Assembly (NCBI GenBank): GCA_025454525.1 | Contig: JALOOG010000027.1 | Coordinates: forward strand, 1 to 43,839 | Reading direction: 5' to 3' | DNA: 43,839 bases | DNA from: Anaerolineae bacterium | GTDB taxonomy: Bacteria > Chloroflexota > Anaerolineae > Aggregatilineales > Phototrophicaceae | Shown: positions 3,195-43,490 of the stretch, in pieces | Layout: each line of letters opens with the position of its first letter | Position numbering within the stretch: the stretch's first letter is position 1 | Program-made: the position numbers and the translations under genes | Notes under the pieces: generated by a model | Databases searched by the model: none | Seen by the model: only the letters and a program-made list of their open reading frames with translations | What the model was told of the DNA's origin: nothing

Positions 3195-3336
3195 TGAACC
3201 ATAGAGAACACAGAAGTAACCTCAGGAAAGTATCCAACCCATGCAGACGGAACAGCGCATCTCACGCACGCCAGTTCCCTCCCCATGTATGGGTGAGGGC
3301 TAGGGTGGGGTTGGTTCTATACTTACTTCTGAGGTT
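3195..3336 (+). repeat. Dispersed hairpin repeat, copy 1
   Basis: About 142 bp. The left end is TGAACCATAGAGAACACAG, the core (3234-3314) runs from CCAACCC to GGGGTTGG, and the right end is TTCTGAGGTT. The core includes CCCATGTATGGG, which can fold into a small hairpin, and GGGCTAGGGTGGGGTTGG. The arms are imperfectly self-complementary (AAGTATCCAACCC against GGGTTGG...ATACTT). The same ends recur around copy 3 near 9.2 kb, and the core is about 84 percent identical to copy 2 by eye. Confidence 0.7.
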
Positions 3337-3432
3337 TTCTTTTTTTTCTTTTTTTCTTCTTTTATCTATTATTGTTTTCTTTATATTTTCTCTAAAAATA
3401 CAGACAAATGTTACGATTTTTCCGCTCATCTG

Positions 3433-3441
3433 TGCTATCAT
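3433..3441 (+). promoter_or_regulatory. Extended -10 promoter of leader cassette A
   Basis: TGCTATCAT is an extended -10 (TGn plus TATCAT). Upstream TTACGA at 3411-3416 would be a -35 with a long 19-nt spacer, so the extended -10 probably dominates. The block CAAATGTTACGA...GTGCTATCATC is conserved in cassette B (minus strand, 43131 downwards). Predicted start of transcription is about 3448, some 32 nt before the leader ATG. Confidence 0.55.
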
Positions 3442-3479
3442 CGATTCAATATGACCGTGATCACCCTAAGGAGGATCGA

Positions 3480-3551
3480 ATGAAGACTAGACACTTTCGG
3501 CTTGTTTTTGCCTTTTCGTGTTGGCTTGGGCTAATCTTACGATCCACCTAA
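3480..3551 (+). CDS. Putative 23-aa leader peptide, cassette A
   Basis: Short open frame with a strong ribosome-binding site (AAGGAGG ending 6 nt before ATG). The product contains LVFAF in the middle and ends LILRST. A second copy at 42978-43043 on the minus strand encodes a 21-aa peptide sharing M-x-x-R, LVFAF and ILRS near the C-terminus. Peptide-level conservation across a divergent middle, plus conserved promoter and ribosome-binding site, suggests the peptide is translated. The peptide is too short for a domain assignment. A regulatory leader (uORF) for the downstream cation ATPase is one possibility; a relic carried by a repeat is another. Confidence 0.5.
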   Translation: MKTRHFRLVFAFSCWLGLILRST

Positions 3552-3611
3552 CCATGTTGCCGCTGTCGCCGAAATAATTTTTTTCCTTTGCCGCTACCGC
3601 TAACTGCCGCA
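3552..3611 (+). promoter_or_regulatory. Conserved post-leader element A
   Basis: Directly after the leader stop comes GTTGCCGCTGTCGCCG, then an A/T tract AAATAATTTTTTT, then a second GCCGCT-type block ending CTGCCGCAC. The same order (GTTGCCGCTGTCGCCG, AAAAAATTTTTT, CTGCCGCAC) follows leader B at 42919-42977. It could be an RNA regulatory segment or a binding site of two similar half-sites around an A/T tract. Confidence 0.45.
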
Positions 3612-3650
3612 CAGAGCAATGTTGGGTGGCAAGGTTTGAAAAAAGGTTCA

Positions 3651-3777
3651 GAAGTCATCTCAGACCACCCATGCAGACGGAGCAGCCTATTTTATGCGGG
3701 CCAGTTCCCACCCCATGGTTGGGCTGAGGGCTAGGGTGGGGTTGGACGCGAGAAACTTTTCTGTACAGACTTCTGTG
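3651..3777 (+). repeat. Dispersed hairpin repeat, copy 2
   Basis: The core at 3664-3745 is in direct orientation to copy 1: both have ATGCAGACGG, a CCAGTTCCC block, CCCCATG, and end in GAGGGCTAGGGTGGGGTTGG. The left end is CAGAAGTCATCTCAG and the right end is the 3754-3777 inverted-repeat arm. It lies between the leader peptide and the P-type ATPase gene and so may affect readthrough. Confidence 0.7.
3754..3777 (-). repeat. Right arm of 24-bp inverted repeat
   Basis: Reverse complement begins CACAGAAGTCTGTACAGA and differs from the left arm (3157-3180) at only two positions. It also forms the right end of repeat copy 2. Confidence 0.75.
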
Positions 3778-3814
3778 GACATGAGGCACTCCGACGATTT
3801 TAATCGAATGCCTT

Positions 3815-3853
3815 GGCCATAGCACAAATGAGCGTAAAACTGTAACGGATGTC
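3815..3853 (-). promoter_or_regulatory. Inverted promoter-like copy
   Basis: The reverse complement reads CGTTACAGTTTTACGCTCAT followed by TTGTGCTATGG. It resembles the conserved promoter block of the two leader cassettes but points towards lower coordinates and has a weaker -10 (TATGGC). No leader peptide follows it. It is probably a decayed partial copy. Confidence 0.35.
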
Positions 3854-3970
3854 CGGAATGTGCTGAAACTTGCGTGGGGTTTTTTCGTAAAACAGAGGGG
3901 AAAGCATAACTTCTCGGTGCGTTAATGGTTATTACAATTGGACTCGTTTAAATCGGCAAGGATCACAACT

Positions 3971-6475
3971 GTGCAGCAGACCGCAATACAACCCAACTTA
4001 AAAACGCAACCTGTGGAAGTGAAAACTCCCTTAACCACAGGCCTTAGTGAAGCGGAAGTCATCTCACGGCGGAAAAAAGGGTTTGGCAACAATGTCAACC
4101 TACAAACCAGCCGCTCTTACCTTCAGATCTTGCAACAAAACTTGTTTACGTTCCTGAACAACGTGTTAATGGCGATCGGTGTGGTGTTGGTGTTGGTTGG
4201 ATTGTATTCCGACGCGATCACCAGTGTCGGATTGGTGTTCTTGAACGTGGTGATCGGTGTGTCGCAAGAATTTAGAGCGAAACGCAAACTTGATCAGATC
4301 GCGCTATTGACCCGTCCGAAAGCGACCGTATTACGCGAAGGTCAACAAAAAACGATCGACCCTAGCGAGATCGTGTTAGGCGATCTGTTGATCGCCACAT
4401 CGGGCGATCAGATCGTGGTAGACGGTGAGATCATCGGACAAGGTAAAATGGAAGTTGATGAATCGCTCCTTACGGGCGAGTCCGATTTGATCCCAAAAGC
4501 CAACGGGGATAAGGTGATGTCTGGGAGCTTTTGTGTGACAGGTAGTGCGATGTATGAGGCGCAAAAGGTCGGCGCTGAAAGCTACGCGAATAAATTGACC
4601 GAAAGCGCACGCAAATTCCGTCTCATCAAGACTCCGTTGCAAAAAGACATCGATATGGTGATCCGCTTGCTATTGACCTTAGCGGGCATGTTGGGCGTAT
4701 TATTCGGCGCATCGTTTTTGATCCGCGCTGCAACCGCGCAAGACAGCGCACAAATGGCCGCGGTGATCGCCGGACTTGTGCCGAATGGCTTGTTTTTTAT
4801 GGTGGTCGCTGCCTATGCCATGGGCGCGTTGCGGATGTCGGGACGGGGCGCTCTGTTACAACAGATGAACGCGGTTGAGTCGATGAGCAATGTCAACGTG
4901 TTGTGCTTGGATAAAACTGGAACGTTGACCGCCAATAAGATCCATTTTGAGAGCCTGCAACCGATCCGACTCCCTCAAAACGAGGTGGAGCAGATCCTAC
5001 GGTATTTTGTCCATAGTGCATCGGCTAACAATCGTACCAGTGAAGCGATTGCCGCGTTCTACACGGGTGAAACTTTGCCGATTGTCGATGAAGTGCCGTT
5101 TTCATCAGCGCGCAAATGGAGCGCATTGGCTTTTGATCGGCCGGAATTGACCGGAATTTATGCCTTAGGCGCGCCAGAAATGTTGGAGTCGCATCTGGCC
5201 GATCCACAAGTATTGGATCGGGCGCAAATGGCGGCATGGGCCGATCAAGGGTTGCGCGTTTTATTGTTGATCGGCGATCAGACGCGCACAACCTTGCATG
5301 ACTCGTTAGGTCAACCCGGATTACCCCAAGGGATGCAACCTTTGGCTTTACTCAGTTTTAGCGATGAATTGCGCGCCGAAGCCAAAGAAACCTTAGAGGG
5401 ATTCGCTAGGGTTGGGATCAAGCTCAAAATCATCTCTGGGGATAACCCGCAAACGGTGGCCTCATTAGCGCGGCAAGCCGGCCTCTCTAACGATTTTAAG
5501 GTGGTATCGGGTCTCGAATTGGATTCGATCGATGACACCCAATTAGGTGAATTGGCTGAAGAAACGACCGTATTTGGGCGCATCCGGCCGGATCAAAAAG
5601 AGCGGATCGTGAGCGCATTACGTAAGCGTGGGCATTACGTGGCGATGATCGGGGACGGGGTGAACGATGTGTTATCGCTCAAAAAGGCTCAGATCGGGAT
5701 CGCGATGCAAAGTGGTAGCGCGGCGACTCGCGGTGTCGCAGACATCATTTTGTTAGGCGACTCGTTCGCAGCCTTGCCCTCGGCGTTTACCGAAGGTCAA
5801 CGGATTCTCAATGGGATGCAAGACGTGGTACGTTTATTCCTCACGCGGGTGTTTTATGTGACGTTGTTGATCCTTGGGACGGCGGTGGTCGCTGATCCGC
5901 GTTTGTTCCCGATGACCCCAACTCAATCGGCGTTATTGACCTTTCTTACGGTAGGGATTCCGACCTTTGCGTTAGCGGCATGGGCGCGGCCGGGGGTGTA
6001 TAAGGGGGATCTGATCCCCACAGTGTTAAAGTTTGTCGTACCGGCCGCGGTATCGATCGCGGGTTTCGGATTGAGTTTGTTTGTCTACTATTTGTTGCAA
6101 CACAGCAATCCCCAAGCGATCCTCACCGGATTAGAGATCGCTACGGTCGAAACCGCACGCACGGTCTTGTTACTATTTTTGACCGCTGCTGGAATCGTGT
6201 TGATCGTGTTTGTTGAACCGCCGATCCGGTTTTTTGCGGGTGGTGACGAATTGACCGATGATTGGCGACCGACACTGTTAGCGGGGGCGATGATGATCAC
6301 GTTAGTGATCGTCAACTTGATACCGTCCATGCGCGATCTGTTTAGCTTATCGGTGTTGCGACCCCAAGATTACCTGTTGATCGCCGGAACGGTGATCGCA
6401 TGGGCGTTGACGTTGCGTTTGATCTTCCAATTGCGATTATTTGAGCGGATTTTTCACAGTAAATCCGAGGCATAA
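3971..6475 (+). CDS. P-type cation-transporting ATPase, CtpE/PacL-like
   Basis: Integral-membrane ATPase of about 834 aa that moves a cation using a phospho-Asp intermediate. Landmarks in order: actuator motif LLTGESD, phosphorylation site CLDKTGTLTANK, hinge MIGDGVNDVLSLKKAQIG, and about ten hydrophobic segments, the last cluster after the hinge. The stretch GLVPNGLFFMVVAAYAMGA before the phosphorylation domain resembles the CtpE branch (mycobacterial calcium uptake ATPase), with no heavy-metal CPC motif and no N-terminal metal-binding domain. The GTG at 3971 is chosen because AAGGA lies 8 nt upstream; an in-frame TTG at 3938 has no ribosome-binding site. Calcium or another divalent ion is the best guess. 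Upstream is the leader cassette; downstream is a hairpin shared with fabD. Confidence 0.85.
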   Translation: MQQTAIQPNLKTQPVEVKTPLTTGLSEAEVISRRKKGFGNNVNLQTSRSYLQILQQNLFTFLNNVLMAIGVVLVLVGLYSDAITSVGLVFLNVVIGVSQEFRAKRKLDQIALLTRPKATVLREGQQKTIDPSEIVLGDLLIATSGDQIVVDGEIIGQGKMEVDESLLTGESDLIPKANGDKVMSGSFCVTGSAMYEAQKVGAESYANKLTESARKFRLIKTPLQKDIDMVIRLLLTLAGMLGVLFGASFLIRAATAQDSAQMAAVIAGLVPNGLFFMVVAAYAMGALRMSGRGALLQQMNAVESMSNVNVLCLDKTGTLTANKIHFESLQPIRLPQNEVEQILRYFVHSASANNRTSEAIAAFYTGETLPIVDEVPFSSARKWSALAFDRPELTGIYALGAPEMLESHLADPQVLDRAQMAAWADQGLRVLLLIGDQTRTTLHDSLGQPGLPQGMQPLALLSFSDELRAEAKETLEGFARVGIKLKIISGDNPQTVASLARQAGLSNDFKVVSGLELDSIDDTQLGELAEETTVFGRIRPDQKERIVSALRKRGHYVAMIGDGVNDVLSLKKAQIGIAMQSGSAATRGVADIILLGDSFAALPSAFTEGQRILNGMQDVVRLFLTRVFYVTLLILGTAVVADPRLFPMTPTQSALLTFLTVGIPTFALAAWARPGVYKGDLIPTVLKFVVPAAVSIAGFGLSLFVYYLLQHSNPQAILTGLEIATVETARTVLLLFLTAAGIVLIVFVEPPIRFFAGGDELTDDWRPTLLAGAMMITLVIVNLIPSMRDLFSLSVLRPQDYLLIAGTVIAWALTLRLIFQLRLFERIFHSKSEA

Positions 6476-42305: not shown

Positions 42306-42809
42306 TTAAACTTGTTCGATCAATTCTGCCGCCAACAACACCCCTGAATACGGTGCGCGATAGATGTGATACGTTGCACCGTGCTGAAAGGCCTTAAATA
42401 CCTCTTTTGAGACCACCACCTCCGCCTGATTTACCCGGATCAAGTACGTGATCACCCGCCGATTAATTGGTTTGATCACGCGCTCTAATTCACCGCTGTT
42501 GATCATAACCCGCTTGCCGTTGATGTCGGCGGTTAATTTCAGCCAATAACGCGCAAAAATACCCGTAAATGCCGCGCTACAAATGCTTAATCCCACCCCA
42601 ATCAAGATCAAGATAGGCGATTCGTCTAAATTACCCACATAGATGAATCCGGATGCGATCACGACCACCACCAAGACAATCAACGCCCCGATGATCTCCG
42701 TCCGACGGCGCTGAAGACGTAAACGGTAATGTTGCATCTCACTTAGCTCACCGCGCTGATTGTGTTTCAGATCATCTTGTGAAAACTCAATACTTTGCAT
42801 TAAACCCAT
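42306..42809 (-). CDS. Small membrane protein with two transmembrane segments
   Basis: 167-aa protein. A charged N-terminus (about 40 residues, Arg-rich LRLQRRRTEI) precedes two hydrophobic segments (IIGALIVLVVVVIASGFIYV and LILIGVGLSICSAAFTGIF). A C-terminal cytosolic beta-rich part contains VITYLIRVNQAEVVVSKEVF and YHIYRAPYSGVLLAAELIE. No family was recognised. The start could be either of two ATGs at 42809 or 42800; the first has AAGG about 8 nt upstream. It lies downstream of leader cassette B, as the P-type ATPase lies downstream of cassette A, so both may respond to the same signal. Confidence 0.6.
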   Translation of the reverse strand: MGLMQSIEFSQDDLKHNQRGELSEMQHYRLRLQRRRTEIIGALIVLVVVVIASGFIYVGNLDESPILILIGVGLSICSAAFTGIFARYWLKLTADINGKRVMINSGELERVIKPINRRVITYLIRVNQAEVVVSKEVFKAFQHGATYHIYRAPYSGVLLAAELIEQV

Positions 42810-42918
42810 GTGCTTAACCTTGCCAACTGCGAATTTCCTGTATTAAACCCAATTTGACGTGAAATTTGAAGTGATGAAGTAGGATAGGCGATCGAGTCCG
42901 CTTCAAACTCACCGATTG

Positions 42919-42977
42919 GGTGCGGCAGTGACGGCAGCGAAAAGCAAAAAATTTTTTCGGCGACAGCGGCAACGTCG
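42919..42977 (-). promoter_or_regulatory. Conserved post-leader element B
   Basis: On the minus strand GTTGCCGCTGTCGCCG, then AAAAAATTTTTT, then a CTGCCGTC/ACTGCCGCAC block, matching the element after leader A in order and spacing. It may be an RNA or DNA regulatory site. Confidence 0.45.
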
Positions 42978-43043
42978 TTAGAGGGATCGTAAGATTGCAT
43001 TCTGAAGTCGAAAAGCAAACACCAAGTAGAAGCGCAGATTCAT
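42978..43043 (-). CDS. Putative 21-aa leader peptide, cassette B
   Basis: Short frame with a GAGGGGG ribosome-binding site 5-11 nt before ATG. The peptide starts MNLRFYLVFAFR and ends AILRSL. It shares LVFAF and ILRS plus flanking DNA with leader A (3480-3551); the first 80 nt of the two cassettes align without gaps at roughly 86 percent identity by eye. It is 168 nt upstream of the membrane protein gene at 42809 and in the same direction. Confidence 0.5.
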   Translation of the reverse strand: MNLRFYLVFAFRLQNAILRSL

Positions 43044-43081
43044 TCGATCCCCCTCACGTTGATCACGGTCATAATGAGTAG

Positions 43082-43090
43082 ATGATAGCA
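43082..43090 (-). promoter_or_regulatory. Extended -10 promoter of leader cassette B
   Basis: On the minus strand TGCTATCAT, identical to the -10 of cassette A, 38 nt before the leader B ATG. The palindrome at 43102-43129 overlaps the expected -35 area. Confidence 0.55.
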
Positions 43091-43101
43091 CAAATGGGCG
43101 A

Positions 43102-43129
43102 AAAAGTCGTAACATTTGTTACGACTTTT
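43102..43129. promoter_or_regulatory. Perfect 12-bp palindrome, possible operator
   Basis: AAAAGTCGTAAC and GTTACGACTTTT are perfect reverse complements around ATTT. The position upstream of the cassette B -10 fits an operator for a dimeric regulator; it could also act as a weak plus-strand terminator. Only one arm is well kept at cassette A. Confidence 0.5.
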
Positions 43130-43490
43130 GGGGCGATTACCTTGATGAAATGAATGGGTTAGTTGGCAGCATTTTCATCTTGTGTTAAAGTTTGAATATC
43201 ACTGGGAACCCTCCCAGTTTTAGGTAAAAATTTTCAGTTAAAACTTACGTTAGATTTAACTTTAAGTAATGTTTCAAGCGCAATTTTTACGAAAAAGCAC
43301 ATTTTTTATCAAAAAATAAGAGAGTGTTCCCAGAAAATTGAAGATTCCCTGACCAACGTGGAGGTGTCAACGTAAAAGTTGTCCCTTCACACCTAAATTT
43401 TACTTTTACCCGTTGTAAGCTTCGCAGGCGGCCACGGTGAGAAGCGCTTAAAACGTTGATGTGTTCACAGGAGGGACAACCCATTCAAGA
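43130..43490. other. A/T-rich noncoding region
   Basis: About 360 bp with no credible gene. It holds a hairpin ACTGGGA/TCCCAGT (43201-43218, followed by TTTT) and a nested stem AGGTGT/ACACCT (43362-43394) with CAAC/GTTG inside. It separates leader cassette B from the GH1 fragment. Confidence 0.5.
43201..43218 (+). terminator. Possible rho-independent terminator
   Basis: ACTGGGA and TCCCAGT form a perfect 7-bp stem with a 4-nt loop followed by TTTTA. No plus-strand gene lies directly upstream, so its purpose is unclear. Confidence 0.4.

Follow-up and report, generated by a model that had tools for sequence, protein, structure and literature searches.

A dispersed repeat with a putative promoter in an Anaerolineae genome, probably a MITE-like derivative of an HTH gene unit

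The window analysed here, i.e., the whole stretch of 43,839 nucleotides from an Anaerolineae bacterium, contains a block of about 205 bp twice, on opposite strands, and the question is what this block is. The preliminary description took it for a duplicated promoter and leader-peptide cassette serving membrane-transport genes. Both copies are found where it had placed them. Copy A (3404-3612) and copy B (43119-42920) are 78% identical over 210 columns by blastn, with an E value of 9.6e-37 in the search of the own genome, and a hand count gives 11 differences in the first 80 aligned nucleotides, in agreement with the ~86% estimated before. The parts claimed for the block, namely an extended -10, a strong Shine-Dalgarno (SD) sequence, the GCCGCTGTCGCCG block and an A/T tract, are present in both copies, and the open frames of 21-23 codons are found with 23 and 21 codons, ending in ILRST* and ILRSL*.

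The conserved core of copy A occupies 3390-3611 on the plus strand in an alignment of 39 copies (model match 3392-3605, 176.9 bits). It consists of a P block at 3404-3442 (ACAAATGTTACGA ... extended -10, with TGC at 3433-3435 and TATCAT at 3436-3441), an SD and start region at 3468-3482 (AAGGAGG 3468-3474, ATG 3480-3482), the short ORF MKTRHFRLVFAFSCWLGLILRST* at 3480-3551, the T block AATCTTACGATCCACCTAACCATGTTGCCGCTGTCGCCG at 3533-3571, and an A/T tract with a GCCGCY-rich tail at 3572-3611. The E1-E2 (P-type) ATPase gene follows on the same strand at 3938-6475 (PF00122, 4.4e-39). The core of copy B lies at 42918-43133 on the minus strand, as judged from sequence, alignment and model match, with its P block at 43082-43119 (extended -10 TGC TATCAT at 43090-43082) and the short ORF MNLRFYLVFAFRLQNAILRSL* at 42978-43043. 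The gene downstream of it (42306-42809, minus strand) encodes 167 aa with two hydrophobic segments and shows no Pfam match at E 1e-5. The two copies represent two types: in type A the sequence AAAAATACAGAC replaces the left palindrome arm, while copy B, of type B, has the full palindrome AAAAGTCGTAACAAATGTTACGACTTTT. A degenerate P-only relic stands inverted about 200 bp after copy A (3809-3859, minus strand; nhmmer 19 bits, E 1.4e-4).

The duplication described before is therefore real, but its extent had been underestimated, since there are more than 100 copies and the whole element is longer. With copy A as the query, the own genome (G000; 5,239,579 bases, i.e., 5.24 Mb, in 230 contigs) returns 43 rows; two of these come from the palindrome matching in reverse within copies already listed, and another two are fragments of a single copy. 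We have built an alignment from 39 copies and made a sequence-only model from it, which gives at least 151 matches in the genome at E <= 1, some copies being split in two. A promoter-core pattern with at most two mismatches occurs 144 times (reversed control 0), and a 3' motif with at most three mismatches 82 times (control 0). Overall, the cassette is a dispersed family with well over a hundred copies in this genome, far more than chance would give.

For the counts below, 137 stretches of the genome, chosen by having matched the family, were fetched (737,697 bases including the window). In these, nhmmer reports 168 hits, namely 112 full, 42 5'-only, 11 3'-only and 3 other, where about a dozen weak 5'-only hits (<20 bits) are palindromes of full copies matched in reverse. 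Since nhmmer detects copies via P and T, the counts are too low for copies in which P or T is damaged. One copy of 26 bits (L143_2718) is included in the counts of 112 and excluded from those of 111. Bit-score classes stand for distance from the model consensus, not for age, and ORFs are longest open frames rather than curated genes.

From the left, a complete member consists of a left end (C)AGGGYAATCGCTTCAAAAGACATCGG, the P block (GTAACAWWTGTTACGAYTTTTYCGCTCATCTGTGCTATSATC), a variable 5' UTR, and the SD with ATG, followed by a variable middle, the T block, the A/T tract, a GCCGC-rich tail and the right end TGATTTTTGAAGCGATTGCCCT. Where both ends survive (L028, L081, L080), the whole element is 281-304 bp long. 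The spacing in the P block is 27 nt in 101 of the 102 measured copies (9 of the 111 being unmeasured), and the T block has the form AATCTTACGATCCGCCTAACCACGTTGCCGCTGTCGCCG in one group and the related form CTTACCATCAAGCTTACGATGCCGCCGCCG in another. An SD-like motif with a start is present in 101 of 112 copies, taking the best of a window with a score of at least 6 on our own scale.

Some copies are bounded by terminal inverted repeats of ~17 bp with GGGYAATCGCTTCAAAA ends. Allowing up to two substitutions, the end motif has 23 hits in the 737,697 bases and none in one mononucleotide shuffle; 21 of the hits are within 150 bp of a family member, and only 2 within the 738 kb fetched stand away from copies. 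Matching end pairs are seen in L080, L028 and L087. Most copies have no recognisable ends in a fuzzy search: with at most five errors, a left end is found in 43, a right end in 32 and both in 15 of 111 copies, several of these being spurious. Copy B itself may retain a left inverted-repeat remnant, AGGTAATCGCCCC (43130-43142, minus strand; 3 errors), and possibly a right-end remnant, GTGAGTTTGAAGCGGACTCGATCGCC (42887-42912, minus strand), seen by eye at a place where the fuzzy search gave no match.

Direct repeats next to the ends have been scored in 12 of the 15 both-end copies, L027, L038 and L118 being dropped as their end match (5 errors) looked spurious. Four of the 12 reach a score of at least 7, against 0.8% of cross-pairings: TTAAAGAG at L041, TATTAAGTTCGGC with one mismatch at L078, TAAGTTA at L080, and TAATCGC at L028, the last of which could be a fortuitous match lying in the repeat motif. 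In wide windows around 83 copies, an exact 8-mer or longer is common to 13, while 9.8 are expected from cross-pairing, so that the data are suggestive of target-site duplication and do not go further. In the features by which a MITE is recognised, the family is short, repeated, dispersed and mostly intergenic, and terminal inverted repeats are present in a subset of copies only. There is no transposase gene of its own; the ~300 bp hold short frames only, of at most 66 aa in the extracted pieces, some of them open at the piece end.

Where the inner blocks may come from is indicated by the ends of contigs C152, C78 and C126, at which the P block of the family is followed by the start of an HTH gene. 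In C152 the SD region is similar as well, and the ORF continues in frame through the T block (MSRRYTPETRAKALAMLRDHGNN...LKPYDPPNHVAAVAEKNF...). That is, the homeodomain-like HTH gene at 5027-5566 of C152 (L161) has, in its promoter, start and linker codons, the counterparts of the conserved blocks of the cassette, the T block of copy A corresponding to the codons around KPYDPPNHVAAVAE. The N-terminus of its product resembles HTH_Tnp_1 (PF01527; 22.6 bits, E 1.3e-4, below the Pfam gathering cut-off of 24.1). This gene appears to be broken, its C-terminal part lying by eye in another frame than the start, and it was used unrepaired. The HTH gene is present more than once, cut by the contig ends of C78, C126 and C76. 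Since a number of copies fall at contig ends (e.g., C54:12, C8:1 and C94:4, besides C152, C78 and C126), complete HTH-bearing units are not visible in the assembly.

A homologue of the HTH protein in the genome G026 has 162 aa, with 43% identity over 68 residues, and this protein as a query finds homologues in 40 of 98 genomes of the bacterial family, the own one and G026 included. The start of the HTH gene could be placed by script in 16 of 30 loci and not in the other 14. Upstream of 3 of the 16 (L199, L200, L202) there is a GAACAYNTGTRCTAT-like promoter, which resembles the CATCTGTGCTAT of the cassette, so this promoter accompanies the HTH gene in other genera too. The cassette is thus best read as the 5' region of the HTH gene plus linker with the HTH codons missing, and we infer that descent ran from the HTH gene to the cassette. 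A phage origin was rejected, as tblastn of either HTH protein against phages gave no match, and likewise a plasmid origin, the G026 protein having no match among plasmids. In viral contigs the 3' motif finds no match, and neither HTH protein has a confirmed relative there.

Putting ends and HTH match together, we favour as probable the reading that the cassette is a non-autonomous MITE-like repeat, an internally deleted derivative of an HTH-gene unit. A unit bounded by inverted repeats of ~17 bp would have carried the promoter, SD, start codon and linker fragment of the HTH gene, but no longer its HTH-coding part. Mobilised in trans by a transposase, this unit would have increased in the lineage to well over a hundred intergenic copies, with insertion or survival mainly near gene starts. 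Against this stand the facts that no transposase bearing such ends turned up, the end motifs having been searched in 738 kb, that direct repeats occur in just 4 of 12 copies, that ends are mostly unrecognisable, and that 12 of 14 HTH homologue loci have no flanking inverted repeat, the remaining two having weak ones. The constraint on P and T described below is a further difficulty.

The earlier reading, by contrast, was that of a translated leader peptide or attenuator. The SD-like motif with its start in 101 of 112 copies would fit it, and so would the position of copy A before a P-type ATPase. Also, of the 107 copies followed by an ORF, 88 have the promoter-like block before a same-strand gene, as had been proposed. 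On the other hand, the frame leading from the best SD-linked start into the 3' block is of the ILRS kind in just 29 of 112 copies, the SYDPPNH type in 26 and the NLTIPL type in 18, with other frames or an early stop in 39. By score, the ILRS frame is kept in 27 of 56 copies with at least 150 bits, and in 2 of 56 below. Since the frame differs among copies, the conserved peptide ends, from which translation had been deduced, are conserved DNA, and the short ORF of copy A is probably not a conserved peptide. The preliminary description had itself said that frameshifts in most copies would point to a selfish repeat, and this is the situation observed.

The supposed link to membrane transport is not supported either: hydrophobic segments, one or more, are seen in 29 of the 88 proteins encoded downstream, and in 154 of the 491 remaining ORFs of these loci. 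As for attenuation, alifold on 39 copies gives -2.2 kcal/mol with no covarying pair, and folding of single copies yields a mean z of +0.44 over 104 copies and no conserved fold. A scan of copy A detects no terminator-like site around it. The leader-peptide reading is already largely refuted by these results, and we consider it very improbable, although the first interpretation as a whole is partly supported through the promoter-like block and its place before a same-strand gene. We regard it as extremely improbable, too, that the copies are type I toxin-like genes for small hydrophobic peptides. Many less diverged copies do encode hydrophobic peptides of ~21-30 aa, but the frame survives in only 2 of the 56 copies under 150 bits, and the search for an antisense RNA, made at copy A only, gave one promoter-like site on the minus strand, as in shuffles.

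A family of small regulatory RNAs, with the T block as an unstructured conserved pairing segment, is another reading, to which we assign little likelihood. It could draw on the promoter-like block that each copy would bring along, on the conservation of T at all codon positions in the 39-copy alignment, and on the constraint given below. In addition, SD-T duplexes in 111 copies (-10.68 kcal/mol) are better than those with permuted partners (-10.23 kcal/mol, p 0.02) or with shuffled SD (-9.71, sd 0.28). However, duplexes with shuffled T are just as good (-10.79, sd 0.22), there is neither a fold nor a terminator at copy A, no Rfam family reaches the gathering score in the window (best 14.8 bits, E 2.6, at 3300-3750), and the T block matches codons of the HTH gene. 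The related proposal that T sequesters the SD, which looked good by eye in copy B, was dropped on the same shuffled-T comparison.

The P block, in its turn, is a putative promoter, considering its extended -10, its conservation, its strict spacing and its place before the HTH gene. A scan for sigma-70 consensus promoters finds no plus-strand site at copy A, which counts against the promoter part of the MITE-like reading; the scan misses this P block because it has no consensus -35.

Between nearest-neighbour copies less than 12% apart (9 pairs), 17 of 387 sites differ in P (4.4%) and 16 of 351 in T (4.6%), while 61 of 441 differ in the middle (13.8%). The corresponding values are 6 of 144 for the SD block, 16 of 207 for the UTR and 68 of 328 for the tail. 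Neither P nor T has gaps, while the middle has 11. That is, the middle diverges about three times as much as P and T in these pairs. Such strong constraint is not expected of dead repeats or MITEs. It may reflect selection acting on individual copies, source elements whose multiplication depends on P and T, homogenisation or, in part, the way in which copies were detected.

As to placement, not one of the 111 copies has more than half of its length in an ORF of 150 aa or longer. The downstream ORF is on the same strand in 88, on the opposite strand in 19, and missing in 4, and the median gap to a same-strand ORF is 111 bp. By gap type, 42 copies are in divergent, 2 in convergent and 45 in tandem regions (30 sense, 15 antisense), while one neighbour is missing for 22. 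The intergenic background without hits in the same loci amounts to 8.2 kb divergent, 18.1 kb tandem and 3.5 kb convergent, from which our own arithmetic gives a same-strand share of ~58% by chance, against 82% seen. The ratio of same to opposite strand is 38:14 for copies with at least 150 bits, 19:2 for 100-150 bits and 31:3 below 100 bits. Within type B it moves from 23:9 to 47:5, i.e., more sense copies among the diverged ones (Fisher p 0.036), and type A has 18:5 overall. Tandem regions show 14:11 at 150 bits or more versus 16:4 below, and 5'-only copies of at least 24 bits 18:4.

These trends could speak for a repeat-derived regulon, in which former insertions are now kept and a common promoter, perhaps with the P palindrome as operator, controls the downstream gene. 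Selection would then account for both the P/T constraint and the orientation bias, and the rise of the same-strand excess in lower-score copies, the tandem and 5'-only ratios and the threefold lower change of P and T are all in its favour. The objections are that the palindrome is not kept, the 78 type B copies having its left arm CGTAACA in 35 cases and its right arm TGTTACG in 70, so that a dimeric operator is not required; that many downstream genes have TATAAT-like sequences of their own, namely 41 of 88 in the 90 bp before the ORF against 22.9 (sd 4.4) in shuffles, with exact TATAAT in 11 against 2.8; and that loss of wrongly pointing promoters would yield an equal orientation bias.

The downstream genes scanned share no function either. 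Pfam was run on 30 of the 88 proteins and matched 29 of them, and many kinds of genes appear instead of the coherent set expected of an attenuator, among them Clp ATPase, trigger factor, class-V aminotransferase, dCTP deaminase, GARS (purine synthesis), peptide deformylase, endonuclease III, TatC, signal peptidase II, UPF0102, P-type ATPase, RlmN, esterase, MFS, ABC transporter, FtsK, protein kinase, signal peptidase I and class I tRNA synthetase. They are diverse and often housekeeping genes, with no functional theme among the 30 scanned. We hold the regulon reading to be unlikely, and equally doubt that the copies persist mainly for their regulation of host genes.

Under the favoured MITE-like reading, the carried promoter (TGTTACGA ... 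extended -10) would fire toward the right end, insertions pointing it against a neighbour would be lost more often so that sense copies remain, and these may add a distal transcript to the downstream gene. As the latter often has its own promoter-like sequence, a copy would be either a distal promoter or merely tolerated; co-option as distal promoters is a plausible possibility. A bolder version supposes that a captured mobile promoter cassette has rewired the genome, with ~90 genes in the loci examined, housekeeping ones included, under one common repeat-derived promoter and possibly one regulator, selected in sense, and with a separate 72-copy core set in the genome G050. We regard this as a rather remote prospect.

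Type A comprises 26 of 111 copies, copy A among them. In these, AAAAATACAGAC stands where the left end and palindrome arm would be, after a T-rich or CATAAAAAATCG sequence, and a second MITE-like repeat, R2 (AGTNATCTCAGRAAAGTATCC ... TGAGGGCTAGGGTGGGGTTGGACGCAAGAAACTTTCCTGANNTTACT), often lies further left. The R2 core has 46 hits with at most three substitutions in 738 kb of the own genome. Copy A has R2 on its left (3209-3333) and on its right (3643-3777), both on the plus strand with approximate ends, and it is enclosed by an imperfect inverted repeat (73%) whose arms lie at 3209-3234 and 3752-3777. All four interrupted cassettes that were inspected (L030, L147, L151 and L168, on C216, C202, C181 and C113) have R2 inside. 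Type A copies would have lost their left end; they are joined to R2 and have probably spread together with it.

As to distribution, the T block with at most one mismatch is absent from the 60 other genomes of the bacterial family tested, and the full model, run against 30 of these, matches only in G050, where 17 of the 18 hits fall in model positions 2-94, and in G005, with a single weak hit. Across 98 genomes, the promoter core occurs 72 times in G050 and 0 or 1 time in each of 96 others, with reversed controls of 0 in the own genome and G050 and of 1 in each of five others. The 16 other genomes of the G050 genus are without it, except for one hit with two mismatches (G047). G050 belongs to a second genus and has its own set, with the palindrome GGAACAWWTGTTCC instead of GTAACAWWTGTTAC, altered symmetrically, and with variable bodies (e.g., L063, L065, L224). 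At 20 of the 72 sites, the core is dispersed with no matching ends seen and no orientation bias (9 same, 11 opposite), which counts against the MITE-like reading. Among named genomes, the exact 3' motif has one match, on a Gilvibacter sediminis contig (L066, 1008-1032); this is probably chance, which by our own estimate would account for about as much with 19 fixed bases in 257 Gb.

The altered palindrome invites comparison with the Gram-positive-type LexA (SOS) box. In G050, GGAACAWWTGTTCC contains a LexA-type box, with GAAC-N4-GTTC as in the lexA promoter of that genome. In the genome studied here, however, the own lexA promoter has GAAC-N4-GTTC (CCGAACGAGTGTTC) while the cassette has TAAC-N4-GTTA (CGTAACAWWTGTTACG), and LexA was rejected as the regulator on account of these differing operators. 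Two ORFs of 72-73 aa consist of a LexA DNA-binding domain without the peptidase domain (L070:1510-1728 on C159 and L072:1507-1728 on C213), the one on C213 stopping immediately ahead of a promoter-only relic, which is itself followed by another ORF. They give no clear lead.

If the favoured reading is true, a bacterial repeat with a ready-made promoter has been seeding many genes with one control sequence, and its more and less diverged copies, graded within one genome, offer a test of how selfish promoter repeats join host regulation. No description of this family was found in the open-licence PMC literature, searched by words rather than by sequence, and titles and abstracts on Chloroflexi, Chloroflexota or Anaerolineae contain no paper on such repeats.

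Bacterial MITEs are internally deleted derivatives of a larger element. The cassette is like them in having inverted repeats (in a subset), many copies, no transposase, and a longer relative whose coding part is deleted here, but differs in that no catalytic domain is seen in the HTH protein which this relative encodes. Among known repeats, the Correia elements (CREE/NEMIS) of Neisseria are described in the cited passages as small, non-autonomous, intergenic and high-copy, with inverted-repeat ends and promoter sequences that can affect neighbours (PMC2649163, PMC2229807), and also as ~105-155 bp long, with TA-ended repeats and a stable stem-loop RNA (PMC2229807). As far as these passages go, the cassette resembles them in being small, non-autonomous, intergenic and high-copy, with inverted-repeat ends and a promoter-like sequence, whereas its length of 281-304 bp, its other ends, its unstructured RNA, and its SD, start and HTH gene fragment set it apart. 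BOX, RUP and SPRITE of Streptococcus pneumoniae are dispersed in 125, 110 and 30 copies, respectively, and SPRITE has been suggested to be co-opted (PMC3049150). Those repeats are folded or terminator-like, while the cassette is unfolded, carries a putative promoter, and stands upstream of genes.
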